This document shows, piece by piece, positions 31,289-45,063 of a stretch of 64,000 bases of DNA. Below the pieces are notes generated by a model. That model had not been told where the DNA came from. It did not search any database and saw nothing but the letters and a program-made list of their open reading frames with translations. The position numbers and the translations under genes are program-made. The DNA lies in the NCBI RefSeq assembly GCF_016900375.1, contig NZ_JACJKB010000005.1, forward strand, positions 1-64,000, in the 5' to 3' direction. Origin of the DNA: Collinsella tanakaei (GTDB lineage Bacteria > Actinomycetota > Coriobacteriia > Coriobacteriales > Coriobacteriaceae). How positions within the stretch are numbered: the stretch's first letter is position 1; each line of letters begins with the position of its first letter.

Positions 31289-32368
31289 TTACAGGAAGGT
31301 GCCCAGGTTGAGCGAGATAGCGTCGGTTGCCTGCAGCGGGGCGGCGCCAACGGTGCTTGCGCGCGTGAGCATGAAGGGGCGCACCAGCTCCTGATGGTTC
31401 TCGCCGACGAGCTCCGCACGGCTCGTGCCCGCCTTGATCGCCTCGATCTGGGTGATGAGGCACTGCACACCGCGGCGGCCGATCTCGTAGCCGATCGGTG
31501 CGCAGGTGGTGAGCGGCACGTCGCCGCCCCAGGCCAGCGGGTTGCCGTCGCAGCCCGCCACGGCGATGTCGCCGGGCACGGAGAGGCCCTCCTGGGTAAT
31601 GCCCGCGATGGCGCCCACCGCGAGCACGTCAGTAAGCCCGATGACGGCGTCCGCGCGCTCGCTATCGGGCTGGGCGGCGATGCGTCGGCCGATCTCGAAG
31701 CCCTCTGCCGCAAGGTCGGGTGTGCCCTCGTCGATCACGGTGAGCTCGATTTCGGGATGCAGCTCCATCACGGAGCGGATGCCGGCGAGGCGCGCCGCCT
31801 CGCGCGGGCCGGCGGTGCTGCCGATGACGGTCAGGCACTCGATGCCGAGGGAGGCCAGGTGGGTGGCGATGAGTCCGCCCTGGGCATGCGCGTCGGCAGC
31901 CACGAAGAAGCCGGGGGCGTCGCTTGCGGTGTCGAGATAGGCCACGGGGATGCGGCCCGTCTGGGCGGGGCGCGACATGTCGGCTGCTGCCGTCACCTGC
32001 ACCAGGATGCCCGCGACCTGCGTGCCGGCGAAGTACCTGAGGTAGCGCGCCTCGGTGTCGGCGTCGTTGTTGGCGGCGGCGATGAGCATGCCGTAGCCCT
32101 GTCGGTTGGCCTCAACGCTGGCACCGCTTGCAACCTGCAGGCTGAGACCATGGTTGAGCTGCGGCACCACGAGGCCGAACGTGGGGTTCGACCCTCCGGC
32201 GAGCAGGCGCGCGCTCTGGTTGGGCGCGTATCCCAGCTTGCGGATGGCCTCGTTGACGACGGCGAGCGTCTCGGCGCGCACCTTCTCGGGATGGTTGAGC
32301 GCATTCGACACCGTGCCGAGGGCCACGCCCGCCTCGCGCGCCACATCGCCGATCGTCACCTTGCCCAT
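31289..32368 (-). CDS. LacI family transcriptional repressor
   Basis: The 359-residue protein has an N-terminal LacI HTH (TIGDVAREAGVALGTVSNALN) and hinge helix (NQSARLLAGG). The periplasmic-binding-protein-like effector domain follows from residue 60. Its ligand is presumably a sugar but cannot be read from sequence. It ends 18 bases before larE starts, so larE may be in its operon. It is divergent from glmS, which suggests a link to amino-sugar or central sugar control; that is inference. Confidence 0.88.
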   Translation of the reverse strand: MGKVTIGDVAREAGVALGTVSNALNHPEKVRAETLAVVNEAIRKLGYAPNQSARLLAGGSNPTFGLVVPQLNHGLSLQVASGASVEANRQGYGMLIAAANNDADTEARYLRYFAGTQVAGILVQVTAAADMSRPAQTGRIPVAYLDTASDAPGFFVAADAHAQGGLIATHLASLGIECLTVIGSTAGPREAARLAGIRSVMELHPEIELTVIDEGTPDLAAEGFEIGRRIAAQPDSERADAVIGLTDVLAVGAIAGITQEGLSVPGDIAVAGCDGNPLAWGGDVPLTTCAPIGYEIGRRGVQCLITQIEAIKAGTSRAELVGENHQELVRPFMLTRASTVGAAPLQATDAISLNLGTFL

Positions 32369-34594: not shown

Positions 34595-35611
34595 CTACGC
34601 CAGCGAGCGGACGCTCTCGCGCTCGACGAAGGTCGTGCTCATGTGCGTGACGCAGGTGTAGGGCATGGGGTGCTCCACCTGCTCGATGAGCTTGCGCACG
34701 GCGATGCGGCCCAGGTCGGTACGCGGCACGTGCACGGTGGTGAGCGCCGGGTGCACGATGCTCGCGAACTCGACGTCGTCGAAGCCCACCATGGAGACGT
34801 CGCCCGGGATATCGAAGCCCGCCTCGGCCAGCGCCTTCATGGCGCCGACGGCCAAGGCGTCGTTTTCGGCGAAGAACGCCGTGGGCATCTCCGGATCGGC
34901 TTTCAGCCATGCGAGCATATCGCGGTAGGCGCTCTCCATCTTGTCGGTGCCGAGCGACACGTGGAACTTCGGCTGCGGGCGCACGCCGACCTCGGCCAGG
35001 GCGCGCTCGTAGCCGCGCTCGCGCAGCGGGAAGTTGCGGATGCGCAGCTTGCCGGCCAGGTAGCCGATGTCACGGTGGCCCTGGCGCACCAGATGGCGCA
35101 CGGCGCGGTAGGCGGAGCCCTCGTTGGAGAAAAGGATCGACTCGAAGAAGTGGTTGTCGCTCTGGCCGTCGACGAGCACGAGCGGCACGGGGCACTTGGC
35201 GAACAGGTCGTAGTCGCGTTGGGTCATCTCGGTGCCCAGCAGGATTATGCCGGCCGACGGGTCGCTCATGATGGCGGCGAGCTCACGCTGGCAGGTCTCG
35301 CTGTCGGACAGCTCGACGGTTATATAGGATACGGTGAGCCCGTTGGCGCGGGCCTCCTCCTCGACGCCGTTGACCACGGCCAGGCGGAACGAGCCCTCGT
35401 CCAGCATGCGGCCGGAGTTGCGGCCCATGACGAACTGGACCTGTCGGAGCTTGTTGGACCGCCTGTAGCCCATGTCCGCGGCAACGCGGCGGATCTCGTT
35501 GGCGGTCTCGTCACTTACGCCCCGCTTGTTGTTGAGGGCGTTGGATACGGTTGCGGGGGAGTAGCCGGTGCGCCTGCTGATCTCGCGAACGCTCACCTTG
35601 GAGTTCGGCAT
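34595..35611 (-). CDS. LacI family repressor, probable regulator of the arabinose operon
   Basis: The 338-residue protein starts at the ATG at 35611, after GGAGGGG. It has a LacI-type HTH (SVREISRRTGYSPATVSNALN) and a ligand-binding domain from about residue 65. It is divergent from the sugar ABC operon with araA and araD, so L-arabinose or a derivative is the likely inducer. TAAAC-N6-TAAAC motifs lie just upstream of its start and upstream of the operon, as expected for an autoregulated repressor. This regulatory link is inference from position and motif sharing. Confidence 0.86.
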   Translation of the reverse strand: MPNSKVSVREISRRTGYSPATVSNALNNKRGVSDETANEIRRVAADMGYRRSNKLRQVQFVMGRNSGRMLDEGSFRLAVVNGVEEEARANGLTVSYITVELSDSETCQRELAAIMSDPSAGIILLGTEMTQRDYDLFAKCPVPLVLVDGQSDNHFFESILFSNEGSAYRAVRHLVRQGHRDIGYLAGKLRIRNFPLRERGYERALAEVGVRPQPKFHVSLGTDKMESAYRDMLAWLKADPEMPTAFFAENDALAVGAMKALAEAGFDIPGDVSMVGFDDVEFASIVHPALTTVHVPRTDLGRIAVRKLIEQVEHPMPYTCVTHMSTTFVERESVRSLA

Positions 35612-35627
35612 GGTCCCCTCCAATCAC

Positions 35628-35643
35628 TAAACATTTACTAAAC
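35628..35643. promoter_or_regulatory. Candidate repressor site TAAAC-N6-TAAAC
   Basis: The sequence is TAAACATTTACTAAAC, 16 bases before the repressor start codon. The central TTTACTAAA is nearly palindromic, so the site can be read as a direct repeat with an 11-base period or as a short palindrome. A copy differing at one base lies in opposite orientation at 35909-35924. Confidence 0.55.
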
Positions 35644-35710
35644 AATTGAAGTGTAGCGTGGATTTTCTTTGTTCGGCGGAAAATCAGCTGAACAATCCAT
35701 GAACGGTAGC

Positions 35711-35726
35711 TAAACGCAATGTAAAC
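35711..35726. promoter_or_regulatory. Weaker TAAAC-N6-TAAAC site
   Basis: TAAACGCAATGTAAAC keeps both TAAAC blocks at the same spacing, with a different spacer from the other copies. It lies between the repressor and the operon, in the 424-base divergent control region 35612-36035, where I see no gene. Confidence 0.4.
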
Positions 35727-35885
35727 GAAAAACGTGCTGGTAGATGCTATGGGCATATCTAGCTGGGACTTTTACGGATAAATAATGCAACTGAAATGGT
35801 GGTAAAAAATAACCGACCGTTCGCCAGCGAATTGCTGCCGTTCATGGTTTGGAACACCACAGGACACCCATATCGTCATATAAAT

Positions 35886-35924
35886 GTTTTGTCGATGTTT
35901 GGCGAAGTGTTTAGTGAATGTTTA
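35886..35924. promoter_or_regulatory. Two adjacent operator-like sites upstream of the sugar operon
   Basis: GTTTTGTCGATGTTTG at 35886-35901 and GTTTAGTGAATGTTTA at 35909-35924 are, as reverse complements, two versions of the TAAAC-N6-TAAAC motif. They start 23 bases apart, about two helical turns. They lie 110-150 bases upstream of the binding-protein gene, where a repressor could block transcription. Confidence 0.5.
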
Positions 35925-36035
35925 CACGGCTGCCAGACAAAAGCGTGGATGTTCGCATCCACACCGCAAGGGCTTATCGGCCTTAAGGTTTTCGGGGAGC
36001 GGGAGAGCTCCCCGGGAGTATGGAAGGGGTATCCC

Positions 36036-37349: not shown

Positions 37350-38297
37350 ATGGACGCAATCAAAAAGCTTCAGCAAAGCCAGTGGTTCGGCGTGGGCTTC
37401 CTCGTTATCCTGACGGTCATTTGCTGGGCCATCTTCAAGGTGCTGCGCCCCGATACTTTCGGCTCGCCTGAGCAGATCCTGACGTATCTGCAGAGCGCGC
37501 TGATCTACGCCGTCGGCGGCTGCGGCATGTACTTCATCGTCACCCAGGGCCTGTGGGACTTCTCGATCGGCTCCGTGCTGGTCCTGTCCTGCCTGCTCTC
37601 CATCGGCTTCAGCCAGATGTTCGGCTTCGTTGGCCTCGTCGCTGCCCCGATCATCTGCGGTATCCTGCTCGGTTTCTTCAACGGTCTCGCCTACACGGTC
37701 CTGCGCATTCCGTCGCTGATCGTCACCACGGGCCTGTCGCTCATCTACGAGAGCTTCAGCGTCTTCGCCTCCAACTGGGCGGGCACCCGTCTGGACTCCG
37801 ACTTCAACATGTTCGGCTCCTATCCGTACAACCTGATCCTCGCGCTCATCGCGTTCTTCCTGTGCGGTTTCATCCTCAAGTACACCAAGGTCGGCACCTA
37901 CATCAACGCCATCGGCACCAACGAGCTGACCGCTAAGAACATGGGTGTGGACGTCGACAAGTACAAGTTCATCGCGTTCATCCTGTGCTCCGGCTTCGTG
38001 GGCATCATGGCCGTGCTCTACATCGGCTACGGCACCGCCCAGACGCCCATGACCAACATGCTGTCCCAGTCCCTGAACTTCACCCCGCTCATGGGCGCGT
38101 TCTTCGGCCTGGCCTTCAAGAAGTACGGTCACCCCGTCGTCGCCATCGTCATCGGCGAGCTCATCATCTCCATGATGTTCGCCGGCTTCGTTGCGCTCGG
38201 CATGCCCACGACCATCAACAACGTCGTCACCGGCGCTACGCTGCTGATCGTCGTCACCCTGACCGTCAAGCGCGTCAAGGGCGCTGTCGTCAAGTAA
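37350..38297 (+). CDS. Sugar ABC transporter permease (first)
   Basis: The 315-residue protein has 8-10 hydrophobic segments and matches the RbsC/AraH branched permease family: a GLWDFSIGSVLVLSC block and an NGLAYTVLRIPSLIVTTG segment. It forms the membrane channel together with the second permease two genes on. The start follows AAGGAGAGG, about 100 bases after the binding-protein gene. Confidence 0.9.
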   Translation: MDAIKKLQQSQWFGVGFLVILTVICWAIFKVLRPDTFGSPEQILTYLQSALIYAVGGCGMYFIVTQGLWDFSIGSVLVLSCLLSIGFSQMFGFVGLVAAPIICGILLGFFNGLAYTVLRIPSLIVTTGLSLIYESFSVFASNWAGTRLDSDFNMFGSYPYNLILALIAFFLCGFILKYTKVGTYINAIGTNELTAKNMGVDVDKYKFIAFILCSGFVGIMAVLYIGYGTAQTPMTNMLSQSLNFTPLMGAFFGLAFKKYGHPVVAIVIGELIISMMFAGFVALGMPTTINNVVTGATLLIVVTLTVKRVKGAVVK

Positions 38298-38312
38298 AGG
38301 AGGGATACGCAA

Positions 38313-39815
38313 ATGTCAGATAAACTGTTGCTTCACGCTGAGAAGATCGACAAGAAGTTCGGTCCCACGCACGCAGTCAAAGAGGTGTCCCTCGACTTCT
38401 ATGCCGGTGAGATCCACGCCCTGATCGGCGAGAACGGCTCCGGTAAGTCCACGTTCACCAACATGCTCACGGGCATCCTGCCCATCGGCAGCGGCACGTT
38501 CACCCTGGACGGCGAGCAGATCGCCCCGAAGAACCAGGTCGACGGCAACCACCATGGCGTCGCCGTCATCGTTCAGGAGCTCGGCACCCTGAACGGCCTG
38601 ACCGTGGCCGAGAACCTGTTCCTCGGCGACGAGGGCCGCTTCATGAAGCACGGCATCAAGAACACCGCCGCCATGAACAAGAAGGCCCAGGAGCTGCTCG
38701 ACGGCTTCGGCCTCGAGAAGGTCCGCGCCACCGCGCCCATCGAGAACTACAACTTCGAGGAGCGCAAGATCATCGAGATCCTGAAGTCCACGTGGTTCGA
38801 TCCGAAGATCCTCGTCGTCGACGAGACCACGACCGCCCTTTCGCAGGACGGCCGCGACAAGCTCTTCGAGGTCATGCGCGACGTGCGCGCCAAGGGCCAC
38901 TGCGTGATCTTCATCAGCCACGACATGGCTGAGGTCCTGAGCATGTCCGACCGCATCTCTATTTTGCGCGACGGTGACTTCATCACCACCATCAACGCCG
39001 CCGACGTGGACGAGGATCGTCTGAAGACCCTCATGGTCGGCCGTGAGATGGGCGATAACTACTATCGTACCGACTACCCGAACTACGCGACCGAGCCGCA
39101 GGGCGAGATCGCCATCATGATGCAGAACGTCTCGGTCCCCGGCTCGCTGAACGATGTTTCGCTCGAGCTCCACAAGGGCGAGATCCTCGGCATCGGCGGC
39201 CTGTCCGAGTGCGGTATGCACGAGGTCGGCAAGGCTTTGTTCGGCGCCTCCTACGATCGCAAGGGCACGGTGAAGCTGGGCGACGGCACCCCGATCGACG
39301 ACATCAACGCCGCCATCAACAACTCCATCGCCTACGCCTCCAAGGACCGCGATAACGAGAGCCTGCTCATCAACGACACCATCCAGGACAACATCACGCT
39401 GCCCTCGATGCGCGACATGGGCTTCATCCTGAAGCAGAAGGACCTCAAGGCCTTCGCCAAGAAGTACGCCGACATCATGTCGACCAAGATGGTCGGTGTC
39501 GACCAGTACGTCTCGGCGCTGTCCGGCGGTAACAAGCAGAAGGTCGTTCTGGCCCGCTGGCTGGGCAAGCAGTCCAACATCCTGCTGCTCGACTCCCCGA
39601 CCCGTGGTATTGACATCGGCGTCAAGGCCGACATCTACCAGCTGCTCGCGGAGATGCGCAACCAGGGCAAGGCGATCCTCATCATCTCCGAGGAGATCAT
39701 GGAGCTCATCGGTATGTGCGACCGCATTCTGGTCATGAAGGACGGCAAGATCAACGGGCAGCTGTTCCGCAGCCCCGAGCTTACCGAGCAAGACATCATC
39801 GCGAAGATGATTTAA
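38313..39815 (+). CDS. Sugar ABC transporter ATPase with two ATP-binding domains
   Basis: The 500-residue protein is of the RbsA/AraG/MglA type, with two fused nucleotide-binding domains. The first has Walker A GENGSGKST and Walker B ILVVDETTT. The second has a degenerate Walker A region (ILGIGGLSECGMHE) as is usual for this family, an intact signature YVSALSGGNKQKV, and Walker B ILLLDSPTRG. It powers arabinose uptake. It sits 15 bases after the first permease and 13 before the second. Confidence 0.93.
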   Translation: MSDKLLLHAEKIDKKFGPTHAVKEVSLDFYAGEIHALIGENGSGKSTFTNMLTGILPIGSGTFTLDGEQIAPKNQVDGNHHGVAVIVQELGTLNGLTVAENLFLGDEGRFMKHGIKNTAAMNKKAQELLDGFGLEKVRATAPIENYNFEERKIIEILKSTWFDPKILVVDETTTALSQDGRDKLFEVMRDVRAKGHCVIFISHDMAEVLSMSDRISILRDGDFITTINAADVDEDRLKTLMVGREMGDNYYRTDYPNYATEPQGEIAIMMQNVSVPGSLNDVSLELHKGEILGIGGLSECGMHEVGKALFGASYDRKGTVKLGDGTPIDDINAAINNSIAYASKDRDNESLLINDTIQDNITLPSMRDMGFILKQKDLKAFAKKYADIMSTKMVGVDQYVSALSGGNKQKVVLARWLGKQSNILLLDSPTRGIDIGVKADIYQLLAEMRNQGKAILIISEEIMELIGMCDRILVMKDGKINGQLFRSPELTEQDIIAKMI

Positions 39816-39828
39816 GGAGGCGAAACAG

Positions 39829-40800
39829 ATGGCTTCTAGTAATACGAAGGCTGCGGCCGAGGTCCAGGAGAAGAAATTCGACTGGCACCAGATCAAGAGC
39901 TACTTGCCCATTATCAGCTTCGTGGCGATCGTCGCGATCTTCGCCATCCTGACGGGCGGTGCGCTGATCACGCCGCGTAACATCACCCTGATCATCTCCG
40001 GTGGCTTCACCCTCATGATCGCCACCGTGGGCGTCTACATGATCATGTCCATGGGCTGCCTGGACTTCTCCCAGGGTTCCATGATGGGTCTGTCCTGCGC
40101 CGTGGTCTGCTTCCTGTCGCAGTACAACCCGATCCTCGCCATCGTCGGCGGCATGGCCACCGGCGCGGCCATCGGCCTGATCAACGCGATTTTCCACGTC
40201 AAGGGCCAGGTTCAGTCGTTCGTGGTCACGATGTGCATGATGTTCCTGCTTCGCGGCATCATCGCCTACATCACCACCTCGAGCCCGGTGTACGCCGCCA
40301 CCTACCTGACGGCGCTCGCCACCAACACCCCGCTGCTGATCGGTATCGTCGTCGTGGTGCTCGTCATCGCCTACCTGGTGCTGCACTTCACGGCGCTCGG
40401 CTCGAACCTCAAGGCTATCGGCGCCTCTGAGACCGGTGCCCGCTTCGCCGGCATCAACGTCCAGCGCACCAAGATCATCATCTATGTCGTCGCTGGCGCC
40501 ATCACCGGCTTTGCCGCGCTCATCAACGCCATCCGCATCGGTTCGGTTACATCGCAGGCCGGCAACATGCTCGAGACCCAGATCCTTATCGCCCTGGTTC
40601 TCGGCGGCATGCCCATCAACGGCGGCGCCCGCTCCCGCTTCTCCAGCGTGGTCACCGGCGTCCTGTCCTACCTCGTGCTCCAGCGCGGCCTGGTCATGCT
40701 TGGCTTCACCACCGAGATCCAGCAGCTGATCCTCGGTATCGTGTTCGTCATCATGGTCGCCGTCTTCTCCGAGCGCGCGGCTAACCAAGTCATCAAATAG
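39829..40800 (+). CDS. Sugar ABC transporter permease (second)
   Basis: The 323-residue protein is a further RbsC-type permease with GGFTLMIATVGVYMIMSMGCLDFSQGSMMG and GGMPINGGARSRF, the coupling region facing the ATPase. Two different permeases in one operon imply a heterodimeric channel. The start follows AAGGAGG. Confidence 0.9.
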   Translation: MASSNTKAAAEVQEKKFDWHQIKSYLPIISFVAIVAIFAILTGGALITPRNITLIISGGFTLMIATVGVYMIMSMGCLDFSQGSMMGLSCAVVCFLSQYNPILAIVGGMATGAAIGLINAIFHVKGQVQSFVVTMCMMFLLRGIIAYITTSSPVYAATYLTALATNTPLLIGIVVVVLVIAYLVLHFTALGSNLKAIGASETGARFAGINVQRTKIIIYVVAGAITGFAALINAIRIGSVTSQAGNMLETQILIALVLGGMPINGGARSRFSSVVTGVLSYLVLQRGLVMLGFTTEIQQLILGIVFVIMVAVFSERAANQVIK

Positions 40801-41013: not shown

Positions 41014-42510
41014 ATGCTCGAGATCAAGAAGTACAAGTTCTATTTCTGCCCCTGCACCCAGGACCTGTACGGTGACGAGGTTCTGCAGCACGTTGCCGAG
41101 CACTCCGCCGAGGTCGTCGCCGCGCTGAACGCCAGCCCGCTCATCCCCTTCGAGGTCGTGCTCAAGCCCAACCTGCTGACCGCCGACGTCATCCAGGCCA
41201 CCTTCAACGAGGCCAACATGGATCCCGAGTGCGCCGGTATCATCACCTGGGCCCACACCTTCTCGCCCTCCAAGAACTACATCGCCGGCCTGCGTGACCT
41301 CCGCAAGCCGCTGTGCCAGTTCGCGACGCAGTACAACGAGGAGATCCCGTACGACACCATCGACATGGACTTCATGAACGAGAATCAGGCAGCCCATGGC
41401 GAGCGTGAGTTCGGCCACATCTTCGCCCGTATGCGCTGGGACCACAAGGTCGTCTTCGGCTACTGGAAGGACGAGGCCGCCCTGGCCGAGCTCGGTCAGT
41501 GGCAGCGCGTCGCGGTCGGCATCAACGAGAGCCGCAACATCCGCGTGTGCCGCTTCGCCGACACCATGCGCAACGTTGCCGTGACCGACGGCGACAAGAT
41601 CGAGGCCCAGCAGGTCTTCGGCTGGACCGTCGACGCTTGGCCCATCAACGACCTGGTGCCCTACGTCGAGGCCGTCACGCCCGACGAGGTCCGTGCCCTC
41701 ACCGACGAGTACTACGACACTTACGAGCTCGTTCTCGACGGCCGTGACCCGGAGGAGTTCCGTCGTCACGTCGAGGTCCAGGCCCAGCAGGAGATCGGTA
41801 TCGAGCGCTTCCTGGTCGACCACAACTACAACGCCTTCTCCGATCACTTCGGCGATCTGGGCGGCCTGAAGCAGCTTCCGTCGCTCGCCATCCAGCGCCT
41901 CATGCAGAAGGGCTACGGCTTCGGCCCCGAGGGCGACTGGAAGACCCCGGCTATGGTCCGCCTCATGAAGGTCATGACCGCCGGCGACCCCAACGCCAAG
42001 GGTTCCGCCCTCATGGAGGACTACACCTACAACTTGGTTCCGGGCAAGGAGGGCATCCTCGAGTCCCACATGTCCGAGGTCGATCCGTCCGTGGCCGAGG
42101 GCCCCATCGCCATCCGCGCCACGCCGCTGTCCATGGGCGACCGCGAGGATCCGGCGCGCCTGATCTTCACCGCCAAGACCGGCCCGGCCATCGCCACCTC
42201 CCTTGTCGACCTGGGCAACCGCTTCCGCCTGATTATCCAGGACGTCGACTGCAAGAAGGTCGAGAAGCCCATGCCGATGCTCCCCACCGGCACCGTGTTC
42301 TGGACCCCGCGCCCCAACCTCAAGGTTGGCACCGAGGCCTGGATCTACGCGGGCGGCGCGCATCACACCGCGTTCTCCTATGACCTCACCGCCGATCAGA
42401 TGATCGACTGGGCCGACGCCATGGGCATCGAGAGCGTGGTCATCGACGCCAACACCAACATCCGTGACTTCAAGCGCGACCTGAAGCTCGGCGAGGTGTA
42501 TTACCGCTAA
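41014..42510 (+). CDS. araA: L-arabinose isomerase
   Basis: The 498-residue protein has the length and motifs of AraA: CPCTQDLYGDEVL at the start, FATQYNEEIPYDTIDMDFMN, NQAAHGEREFGHIFARMR, and the C-terminal YAGGAHHTAFSYDL with metal-binding histidines. It converts L-arabinose to L-ribulose. The start follows AAGGAGAACC. It lies between the arabinose importer and an FGGY kinase, which confirms the pathway. Confidence 0.95.
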   Translation: MLEIKKYKFYFCPCTQDLYGDEVLQHVAEHSAEVVAALNASPLIPFEVVLKPNLLTADVIQATFNEANMDPECAGIITWAHTFSPSKNYIAGLRDLRKPLCQFATQYNEEIPYDTIDMDFMNENQAAHGEREFGHIFARMRWDHKVVFGYWKDEAALAELGQWQRVAVGINESRNIRVCRFADTMRNVAVTDGDKIEAQQVFGWTVDAWPINDLVPYVEAVTPDEVRALTDEYYDTYELVLDGRDPEEFRRHVEVQAQQEIGIERFLVDHNYNAFSDHFGDLGGLKQLPSLAIQRLMQKGYGFGPEGDWKTPAMVRLMKVMTAGDPNAKGSALMEDYTYNLVPGKEGILESHMSEVDPSVAEGPIAIRATPLSMGDREDPARLIFTAKTGPAIATSLVDLGNRFRLIIQDVDCKKVEKPMPMLPTGTVFWTPRPNLKVGTEAWIYAGGAHHTAFSYDLTADQMIDWADAMGIESVVIDANTNIRDFKRDLKLGEVYYR

Positions 42511-42621: not shown

Positions 42622-44229
42622 ATGGCCATGACGAAAGAACAGATCGTAGCCGACATCGAATCCGGTGCTACCGCGCTGGGCATCGAGTACGGTTCGACCC
42701 GCATCAAGGCGGTGCTCGTGGCGTCCGACAACGAGCCCATCGCCATCGGTGCGTTCGATTGGGAGAACTCCCTGGTCGACGGCTACTGGACCTACAGCGA
42801 GGACGAGATCTTCGCCGGTCTCGCCGCTGCCTACGCCGCGTGCAAGGCCGATGTGGCCGAGAAGTACGGCGTGACGCTGACCAAGGTCGGCGCGCTGGGC
42901 ATCTCTGCCATGATGCACGGCTACCTGCCGTTCGACGCCGAGGGCAACCTGCTCGTGCCGTTCCGCACCTGGCGCAACACCACCACGACCGAGGCCGCTC
43001 ACGAGCTGTCCGACCTCTTCGCGTTCCACACCCCGGAGCGCTGGAGCGTCTCCCACATCTACCAGGCCGTGCTCGGCGGCGAGGAGCATGTGGACAAGAT
43101 CGACTTCTTCACCACGCTCGCCGGCTTCGCGCACTGGCGCCTCACGGGCGAGAAGGTGCTCTCGATCGGCGACGCCTCCGGCATGTTCCCCATCGACTCC
43201 GAGACGCACGACTACGACGCCGCCATGCTCGCCAAGTTCGACGAGCTCGTGGCTTCCAAGGGCGTTGCCTGGAAGGTCGAGGACCTGCTGCCCAGAATTC
43301 TGGTCGCGGGCGAGTGCGCCGGCCATCTGACCGCTGAGGGCGCCAAGCTCCTCGACCCCGATGGCGACCTCGAGCCCGGCTGCCCCGTCTGCCCGCCCGA
43401 GGGCGACGCCGGCACCGGCATGATCGCCACCAACTCCATCGCGCCGCGCACCGGTAACGTGTCCGCCGGCACCTCGGTGTTCTCGATGATCGTCCTCGAG
43501 CATGCGCTCAAGGACGCCACGGCTCCCGAGATCGACCTCGTGACCACCCCGGTGGGCGACCCCGTCGCCATGGTGCACTGCAACAACTGCACCTCCGACA
43601 TCAACGGCTGGGTCAACCTGCTGTGCGACTTCGCGTCGCTCATGGGTGCCGACGTGGACAAGGGCGACGCCTTCGTGAAGCTCTTCAACGCCGCGCTCGA
43701 GGGCGATAAGGACGCGGGCGGCCTCGTGTCCATCCCGTTCATCTCCGGCGAGACCGTCATGGGCGTCCAGACCGGCTACCCCATGGTCCTGCGCGGCCAG
43801 AATTCCAAGTTCAGCATCGCCAACTTCATGCGTATGAACATCATGGCCGCCTTCGGCGCGCTGGCCGCCGGCAACGAGGCGCTGCGCGCTGAGGACGTCA
43901 AGATCGACAAGCTCTACGGCCACGGCGGCATCTTCAAGACCCCGAAGGTCGCCCAGAGCCTGCTTGCCGCCGCACTCGAGGCCCCGGTGACCGTTATGGC
44001 CACCGCTGGCGAGGGCGGCGCCTGGGGCCAGGCCGTCGCCGCCGCCTACATGGCGTGGCACGAGGATGGCGAGAGCCTTGCCGACTACCTGAACAACAAG
44101 GTGTTCGCCGATATGGAGGGCACGACGCTCGAGCCCGATCCGGCCGACGTCGAGGGCTACCGCGCGTTCCTCGCGACCTTCAAGAAGGCCAACGAGGCCG
44201 AGAAGGCTGCCGAGAAGGCGTTCGCGTAA
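42622..44229 (+). CDS. FGGY family sugar kinase, probable L-ribulokinase
   Basis: The 535-residue protein has an FGGY-type actin fold. The N-terminal phosphate loop reads LGIEYGSTRIKAVL, with Glu where most members have Asp, and the C-terminal motif has GHGGIFKTPKVAQ. The region that usually reads W-x-D-x-R is FRTWRNTTT, so the usual catalytic Asp is replaced by Asn, a known feature of a divergent subfamily. Position between araA and araD makes ribulokinase the best call; xylulokinase is the alternative. The start follows AAAGGAGAGG. Confidence 0.85.
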   Translation: MAMTKEQIVADIESGATALGIEYGSTRIKAVLVASDNEPIAIGAFDWENSLVDGYWTYSEDEIFAGLAAAYAACKADVAEKYGVTLTKVGALGISAMMHGYLPFDAEGNLLVPFRTWRNTTTTEAAHELSDLFAFHTPERWSVSHIYQAVLGGEEHVDKIDFFTTLAGFAHWRLTGEKVLSIGDASGMFPIDSETHDYDAAMLAKFDELVASKGVAWKVEDLLPRILVAGECAGHLTAEGAKLLDPDGDLEPGCPVCPPEGDAGTGMIATNSIAPRTGNVSAGTSVFSMIVLEHALKDATAPEIDLVTTPVGDPVAMVHCNNCTSDINGWVNLLCDFASLMGADVDKGDAFVKLFNAALEGDKDAGGLVSIPFISGETVMGVQTGYPMVLRGQNSKFSIANFMRMNIMAAFGALAAGNEALRAEDVKIDKLYGHGGIFKTPKVAQSLLAAALEAPVTVMATAGEGGAWGQAVAAAYMAWHEDGESLADYLNNKVFADMEGTTLEPDPADVEGYRAFLATFKKANEAEKAAEKAFA

Positions 44230-44352: not shown

Positions 44353-45063
44353 ATGATGCTGAAAGAGCTTCGCGAGAAGGTATACGAGGCCAATATGGAC
44401 CTTCCCAAGCACGGCCTCGTCGTGTTCACCTGGGGCAATGCCTCTGAGTTCGATCGCGAGAGCGGCCTGTTCGTCATCAAGCCGTCCGGCGTCGATTACG
44501 ACGAGCTGTCGCCCGAGAACATGGTCGTGTGCGACCTCGAGGGCAAGGTCGTCGAGGGCGATCTCAATCCTTCTTCCGATACCGCAACCCACGCCTACCT
44601 CTATCAGAAGTGGGGCGATAAGATCGGCGGCGTGGTGCACACGCACTCCTCGTGGGCCGTTTCGTGGGCCCAGGCCGGCCGCGACGTGCCCGCCTACGGC
44701 ACCACCCATGCCGACTACTTCTACGGCCCCATCCCGTGTATGCGCGGCCTGACCGAGGCCGAGATCGAGGAGGCCTACGAGCTCAACACCGGCAAGGTGA
44801 TCTATGAGGGCTTCACCGAGCGCGACATCGACCCGGTCGCCGTGCCCGCGGTGCTCGTGCGCAACCATGGCCCCTTCAGCTGGGGTAAGGACGCCGCGCA
44901 GGCCGTCTACCACGCGGTCGTGCTCGACGAGGTCTGCAAGATGGCCACCCGCACCGAGATGCTCAAGCCCGGCGTGGAGCCCGCTCCGCAGTACCTGCAG
45001 GACAAGCACTACATGCGCAAGCATGGCCCCAACGCCTACTACGGCCAGGGCGGCGCCCACTAG
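44353..45063 (+). CDS. araD: L-ribulose-5-phosphate 4-epimerase
   Basis: The 236-residue protein is a class II aldolase-fold epimerase. It starts ELREKVYEANMDLPKHGLVVFTWGN. The zinc site is visible in VVHTHSSWAVSWAQAG and YGTTHADYFYG, with a third His in LVRNHGPFSWG. It converts ribulose 5-phosphate to D-xylulose 5-phosphate, closing the arabinose pathway. The start follows GAAAGGATTTCC. Confidence 0.94.
   Translation: MMLKELREKVYEANMDLPKHGLVVFTWGNASEFDRESGLFVIKPSGVDYDELSPENMVVCDLEGKVVEGDLNPSSDTATHAYLYQKWGDKIGGVVHTHSSWAVSWAQAGRDVPAYGTTHADYFYGPIPCMRGLTEAEIEEAYELNTGKVIYEGFTERDIDPVAVPAVLVRNHGPFSWGKDAAQAVYHAVVLDEVCKMATRTEMLKPGVEPAPQYLQDKHYMRKHGPNAYYGQGGAH

Follow-up and report, generated by a model that had tools for sequence, protein, structure and literature searches.

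Conserved head-to-tail TAAAC sites between an arabinose operon and the gene of a LacI-family regulator predicted to lack the hinge helix in Collinsella

A core part of the mechanism taught for LacI-type repressors is a hinge helix, which places a leucine in the minor groove at the CG in the middle of the site. This helix is marked by an NxxARxL-type motif. It is typical of the LacI/GalR family and is not decisive for membership. The nearest precedent for the sites described here is CytR of Escherichia coli, a LacI-family protein which, in the excerpted text of PMC3454398, uses half-sites in either orientation and at variable spacing. In the same excerpt, SELEX with CytR yielded inverted repeats with spacers of 10-13 bp and direct repeats with a spacer of 1 bp. 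It also describes the cytR and cdd operators as having conserved direct repeats. As far as that excerpt goes, the CytR operators indicate that a LacI fold is capable of reading direct repeats. Half-sites at variable spacing are also described for a second LacI-family protein, CcpA of clostridia (crevar sites, TGTAAA-Yx-TTTACA; excerpt of PMC5263246). The crevar sites are inverted repeats (PMC5263246), unlike the direct repeats of the Collinsella locus, and CcpA is a global regulator.

Locus, paired TAAAC sites and promoter region

The window (the whole 64 000-nucleotide stretch of Collinsella tanakaei DNA that was analysed) carries a lacI-family gene divergent from an operon for a sugar ABC transporter, AraA, an FGGY kinase and AraD. 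The two are separated by 424 bases. The genes are as follows.

34595 to 35611, minus strand: LacI-family regulator gene (lacI), 338 aa, product predicted to be without a hinge helix
36036 to 37250, plus strand: ABC transporter substrate-binding protein (SBP), first gene of the operon; weak NCBIfam sugar-SBP match and no Pfam match
37350 to 40800, plus strand: sugar ABC permease, ATPase and permease (PF02653, PF00005, PF02653)
41014 to 42510, plus strand: araA, L-arabinose isomerase (NCBIfam PRK02929, 697 bits, cutoff 622)
42622 to 44229, plus strand: FGGY kinase, presumably ribulokinase (PF02782 and PF00370)
44353 to 45063, plus strand: araD, L-ribulose-5-phosphate 4-epimerase (NCBIfam PRK13145, 416 bits, cutoff 369)

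For the FGGY kinase, none of the NCBIfam kinase models listed reached its own cutoff. The nearest named regulators were those of Collinsella sp., C. tanakaei and C. ihumii (87-92% identity). A second LacI-family gene is present at 31289-32368, divergent from glmS; its hinge is ordinary-looking (YAPNQSARLLAGG), and no TAAAC or GTTTA was found within the 240 bases 5' of it.

The pattern TAAACN6TAAAC occurred exactly at 35628-35643 (plus strand), 35711-35726 (plus strand) and 35909-35924 (minus strand). A fourth site, at 35886-35901 (minus strand), reads CAAACATCGACAAAAC and has one change in each block. The copies at 35628 and 35909 differ at one base of 16. A preliminary description of this DNA had reported these pairs at 11-base spacing, three exact and one altered in each block, together with the 16-base near-match, and all of this was recovered. 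With up to two mismatches, the window had 24 matches (6.6 expected), a count not attained in any of 100 shuffles; six of the 24 lay within the 424-bp intergenic region. Exact copies numbered five in the 2.48-Mb Collinsella genome, three of them in this intergenic region; the reversed control of the exact pattern gave none in the whole genome. Of the two remaining copies, one is upstream of xfp (XFP_N domain) and the other in a short gap beside a mraW gene.

The four sites are not equivalent. Those at 35909 and 35886 make one array, and the one at 35628 is solitary. The intergenic features are listed below.

35628 to 35643, plus strand: putative operator A (autoregulation), 11-bp direct repeat TAAACATTTACTAAAC just 5' of lacI, with AAAC in both units in nine of nine genomes
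35650 to 35655, minus strand: presumed -10-like element of lacI, TACACT, found in five of nine orthologous regions
35689 to 35726, plus strand: block B, with GAACGGTAG at 35701-35709; it takes in the 35711 site and is probably bound by a second regulator
35817 to 35843, minus strand: block C, GAACGG-N15-GAACGG (CCGTTC on the plus strand), a 21-bp direct repeat located 35 bp before the -10-like element of the arabinose operon
35879 to 35885, plus strand: presumed -10-like element TATAAAT of the arabinose operon, ATATAAA in nine of nine regions, with the -35 consensus absent
35886 to 35924, minus strand: putative operator D, an array of four half-sites, TAAAC-11-TAAAC-12-CAAAC-11-AAAAC, that adjoins the -10-like element on its downstream side
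35945 to 36014, plus strand: 5' leader of the operon, with possible hairpins at 35945-35962 and 35993-36014

Operator A thus adjoins lacI and the D array begins right after the TATAAAT at 35879, which agrees with the earlier proposal that repressor gene and operon have these sites in common. A scan of the intergenic region for sigma-70 consensus promoters found none; this absence fits, without proving, dependence on an activator. In place of TACACT, the lacI -10-like element reads TACAGT, TACGGT and TAGAGT in one region each, and none is evident in genome G016. The leader hairpins differ in sequence between species. The one at 35945-35962 was read from the sequence (its complement is predicted as a stem) and is missing from the consensus fold. 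The one at 35993-36014 is part of the RNAalifold structure, with two-sided changes at four of 19 predicted pairs and a covariation term of only -0.28. In an Rfam search of the leader, the best match reached 15.2 bits, far below the gathering score of 70.

Conservation among Collinsella genomes

A close ortholog of the regulator was found in nine of 43 Collinsella genomes (77-100% identity, the window's own genome included), and 15 further genomes had a homolog at 48-52%. SBP and AraA were present in the same nine genomes. Since regulator and operon always occurred together in the genomes searched, co-occurrence cannot tell them apart.

At site A, all 72 of the 72 AAAC bases were kept across the nine genomes. 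At D1 and D2, 69 and 68 of 72 were kept with locus L009 realigned by one base (67 and 64 without realignment). The spacings of the D array were 11-12-11 in eight of nine genomes and 10-12-11 in the other (G014, locus L009); in G039 (L007) the fourth D unit has lost its C. The preliminary description would have fallen had the motif been missing upstream of orthologous operons with an orthologous regulator. It survived this comparison, A being found in all nine genomes and D in eight, with one spacer base fewer in the ninth. A 37-base D pattern, built from the very sites that it matched, was found (two mismatches at most) in eight of the nine genomes with the regulator and in none of the 34 others, and its reversed control gave no match.

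Pairs of AAAC were then counted in the nine intergenic regions, which are related in descent and so are not nine independent tests: 22 direct pairs at 11 bp were observed where 0.36 were expected, a total reached in 0 of 1000 first-order Markov simulations. Direct pairs at 12, 21, 23, 33 and 34, convergent pairs at 5 and divergent pairs at 29 were likewise matched in 0 of 1000 simulations. The convergent pairs at 5 are AAAC-N-GTTT inverted pairs, six against 0.19 expected, at scattered places in five of the nine regions.

A first alternative is that the repressor binds a conventional or degenerate palindrome, either TTTA-C-TAAA or a wider inverted repeat, and that overlap between sites gives rise to the direct repeat incidentally. 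The palindrome TTTACTAAA is indeed perfect at site A in this genome. Its left arm TTTA is intact there in four of nine genomes, and at D1 in none of nine in fixed register (one with L009 shifted by one base) and at D2 in none of nine; the AAAC units, by contrast, are retained almost throughout. In the same nine regions, convergent pairs at 16 bp occurred twice, against the 22 direct repeats at 11 bp. On these grounds TTTACTAAA was rejected as the functional core, and the suggestion that the palindromic centre is what counts was given up. A canonical LacI operator is an even palindrome with a central CG; A, D1 and D2 are direct repeats whose palindrome arm is poorly kept, and the view that they depart from the standard LacI form holds. 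A survey of 2014 described LacI motifs as palindromes, 1251 of 1303 even, in the portion of PMC4052901 available; by the same text it looked for palindromes alone, and direct repeats could therefore not appear in it (PMC4052901).

The spacing of the units, 11 bp, is near the helical repeat, as it would be if the repeats acted as short, phased A-tracts to bend the promoter DNA, with no dedicated protein involved. Runs of three A make poor A-tracts. Moreover, the terminal C of AAAC is kept in every unit of site A and in all D units but one, which argues for base-specific reading, and we consider curvature a very improbable explanation.

The 35711 site behaved differently. Its TAAAC units vary among orthologous regions (TAAAC, TAGAC, TAAAT, TGAAC, CGAAC), whereas GAACGGTAG, in the same block B, is kept in eight of nine. 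Its place as an equal member of the set, claimed earlier, was therefore rejected. The site probably belongs to another motif, a 21-bp direct repeat of GAACGG. In G016 (L096), the position of block B carries GAACGG-N15-GAACGG, and in block C both CCGTTC copies are exact at 21 bp in four of nine regions. Searched with two mismatches, the GAACGG box was not above its reversed control. A stricter pattern, RAACGGT-N13-YRAACGG, chosen after inspection of the matches of the looser search, gave 58 matches in the nine genomes against four for the reversed control. Seven of the 58 lay at the arabinose locus (in seven of nine genomes); block C of this window, one base off, and that of G040 were unmatched. 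Among 30 loci of the looser search that were inspected, 24 lay outside those reading frames that passed a crude filter. Their neighbours, judged by eye, include PTS components, other transporters and an arginine deiminase, several being transport or energy genes. The box looks like that of a global carbon regulator, and blocks B and C are probably recognized by a regulator of wider scope, separate from the LacI protein. Upstream of arabinose operons of other genera, blocks resembling CCGTTC or CGTTTAC were seen by eye, without a control, at the same 21-bp spacing (L185, L188, L191, L194).

OmpR/PhoB-like or AraC-like proteins classically bind direct repeats with an 11-bp period. A protein of this kind might bind the TAAAC repeats head to tail, with the LacI protein binding elsewhere or acting on other genes. 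The geometry suits such a protein, a second regulator is likely in view of the distinct 21-bp direct repeat found in this region, and the regulator and the operon are inseparable in the genomes searched. One repeat is located just 5' of lacI in all nine genomes, which speaks against it, as does the LacI-like half-site AAAC(G), which precedes the genes of the regulator's relatives in LacI-like layouts, AAACGTTT among them. Taken together, this explanation is judged distinctly unlikely.

A search at two mismatches gave 20 matches, 17 of them at the arabinose locus, against 10 in the reversed control. Upstream of the phosphoketolase gene xfp, TAAAC pairs were found in three of eight aligned genomes (L001, L045, L058), and five of the eight had no AAAC pair at 11 bp; this alignment took eight of nine loci, L067 being left out by the start filter. 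An exact TAAACATTCACTAAACA precedes xfp in G029, and one of the pairs is identical to the 17-base arabinose site. The TAAAC pair of G000 and that of G039 overlap a GAACGG box. As xfp serves pentose catabolism, its membership of the regulon is plausible.

The regulator and its relatives

The regulator belongs to the LacI/GalR family by its N-terminal HTH domain (PF00356, 34 bits, cutoff 27) and its periplasmic-binding-protein-like core (PF13377, 129.3 bits, cutoff 26.5), and LacI-family structures came top in the fold comparison. It is not a CytR ortholog (NCBIfam PRK11041, 136.4 bits, cutoff 436). Two AF2 models, both single chains without DNA, were built from 9 sequences (mean pLDDT 79) and 34 sequences (mean pLDDT 91). 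In both, helix 3 ends at residue 46 and strand 1 starts at residue 57, and the linker of 10 residues between them (47-56) is predicted to be non-helical, so that the hinge helix is absent from the models. The NxxARxL-type hinge motif is likewise absent from the protein. By structural alignment, the linker is about 8 residues shorter than that of LacI (first aligned residues 4 to 2 in 1efa and 56 to 62 in 1jye) and 9 residues shorter than that of CcpA (4 to 1 in 1rzr and 55 to 61 in 2fep). In a plain sequence alignment the only gap is one of 2 residues past the linker, which means that the linker deletion rests on the models. It seems to be balanced by extra residues after strand 1. Judged from these predictions, the regulator appears to have lost the short helix by which its relatives grip symmetrical DNA sites.

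A profile search of 296 genomes drawn from the class found relatives in 57 of them and in 19 of 125 genera, a distant branch with a YKKHG motif included. Among 43 readable relatives (of 46 loci), 35 have the same 8-residue linker, L157 being counted after correction of the parse by eye. The other eight, of the YKKHG branch (L158-L165), have a linker of 13 residues. Sequences like CTAAATATTTAGTACTAAA were seen upstream of lacI at four loci of this branch (L159, L162, L164, L165).

Outside Collinsella, 15 of 40 loci are near arabinose genes, 15 beside a set of a fucose-isomerase-like protein and a two-part transketolase, and 10 near neither. The L-fucose-isomerase-like protein (below the Pfam cutoff) and the two-part transketolase, often with an FGGY kinase, adjoin relatives of the regulator at L099, L100, L101, L126-L128, L131, L146, L152, L153 and L158-L165.

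Upstream of SBP in the arabinose loci of other genera (nine of 13 loci; the stretch of the other four lacked an SBP gene), eight AAAC direct repeats with 11-bp spacing were counted against 0.26 expected (0 of 1000), two of the pairs, in L194, and one in L186 looking weak. Direct pairs at 10 bp (five against 0.27) and 12 bp (three against 0.32) were also counted in these nine regions, as were convergent pairs at 15 and 16 (three each, against 0.14 and 0.15). Examples of the repeats are CTAAACGTAAAGTAAACAG (L186) and GTAAACGGACACTAAACGTTTAC (L191). Some of the direct pairs elsewhere overlap TATAAAC and may simply be a -10 box, which counts against the direct-repeat reading.

The regions upstream of lacI in other genera gave another picture. 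This set (n = 25) leaves out L133, L136 and L143 (truncated N-termini), the distant L154-L165 and Collinsella L098-L103. No AAAC direct repeat at 11 bp was found in it (0.29 expected), and a fixed 11-bp direct repeat for the whole subfamily was rejected for this reason. Abutted AAACGTTT occurred as 11 pairs against 0.19 expected, in five genera, and inverted pairs at start distances of 16 and 17 occurred four and nine times (0.14 and 0.12 expected). Direct pairs at 12 numbered five against 0.31, in two genera; inverted pairs at 28-29 and direct pairs at 24 came mainly from one genus, with those at 28 and at 24 confined to it. The richness in AAACGTTT and in inverted pairs at 16 and 17, together with the lack of 11-bp direct repeats, favours palindrome binding. 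Weighed against the conservation within Collinsella, we regard a palindromic operator as unlikely at the arabinose locus. The mixed arrangements in relatives make direct repeats one of several forms in the subfamily, dominant in the Collinsella arabinose branch.

Proposed mode of action and related systems

Conserved head-to-tail sites one DNA turn apart, together with the apparent loss of the helix, suggest a repressor that reads DNA unusually flexibly. We infer, and hold to be reasonably probable, that a hinge-less, flexibly tethered and arabinose-responsive LacI repressor reads tandem half-sites on one helical face and represses its own gene and the arabinose operon. Without the hinge helix, short non-helical linkers would join the two headpieces to the sugar-binding core, and the two-fold arrangement of a palindrome would not be required. 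Each headpiece would read one TAAAC half-site, and the dimer would cover two half-sites in tandem, whose 11-bp spacing puts them on the same helical face. Pair A would be occupied just 5' of lacI, and two further pairs (D), 23 bp apart, would be occupied from the operon -10-like element onwards. Repressor bound at A and D might then obstruct the start regions of lacI and of the operon. It would be released by arabinose or by one of its products, as the adjacent araA and araD suggest. The GAACGG box farther upstream of each start would probably be bound by the separate, more global regulator. A flexible hinge-less dimer would account for the direct repeats at A and D, their position at both starts and the variety in relatives.

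A wider proposal is put forward tentatively, as possible. By loss of the hinge helix, a LacI subfamily of the Coriobacteriia may have been freed from fixed palindromes and may use the AAAC half-site either way round, whole helical turns apart (direct 10-12 bp, inverted 4 and 16-17 bp). The Collinsella arabinose branch would then have settled on head-to-tail arrays, the headpieces of the dimer breaking two-fold symmetry.

LacI, PurR and RbsR have the same domains as the Collinsella regulator, and AAAC is a LacI-type half-site (AAACGTTT). In contrast to these proteins, the Collinsella models have no hinge helix, and the sites have no central CG and no conserved palindrome. AraC of E. coli is an arabinose regulator whose flexible linkers permit binding to direct repeats; the fold of its DNA-binding domain is unrelated to that of the LacI-type regulator of Collinsella. 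AraR of Bacillus subtilis has a GntR-type DNA-binding domain. The Collinsella protein is not of the AraR type, its DNA-binding domain being LacI-type; the AraR effector domain was among many distant matches. AraQ of Bifidobacterium resembles the Collinsella protein in belonging to the LacI family and in regulating the arabinose genes of an actinobacterium (excerpt of PMC5928203). It is a global regulator, and its motifs were sought as palindromes; the comparison drawn here is one of description.

Among the titles and abstract openings listed from open-licence papers, none described such operators or LacI proteins of a subfamily without the hinge. If the proposal is true, a natural hinge-less subfamily with non-palindromic operators would test how far LacI specificity and allostery depend on the hinge, and operator searches based on palindromes may miss such regulators in gut actinobacteria. 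CytR offers the most direct comparison. It works with CRP, and the octamers of its direct repeats are separated by a 1-bp spacer; the Collinsella sites have a period of 11 bp, with the non-palindromic GAACGG box upstream.
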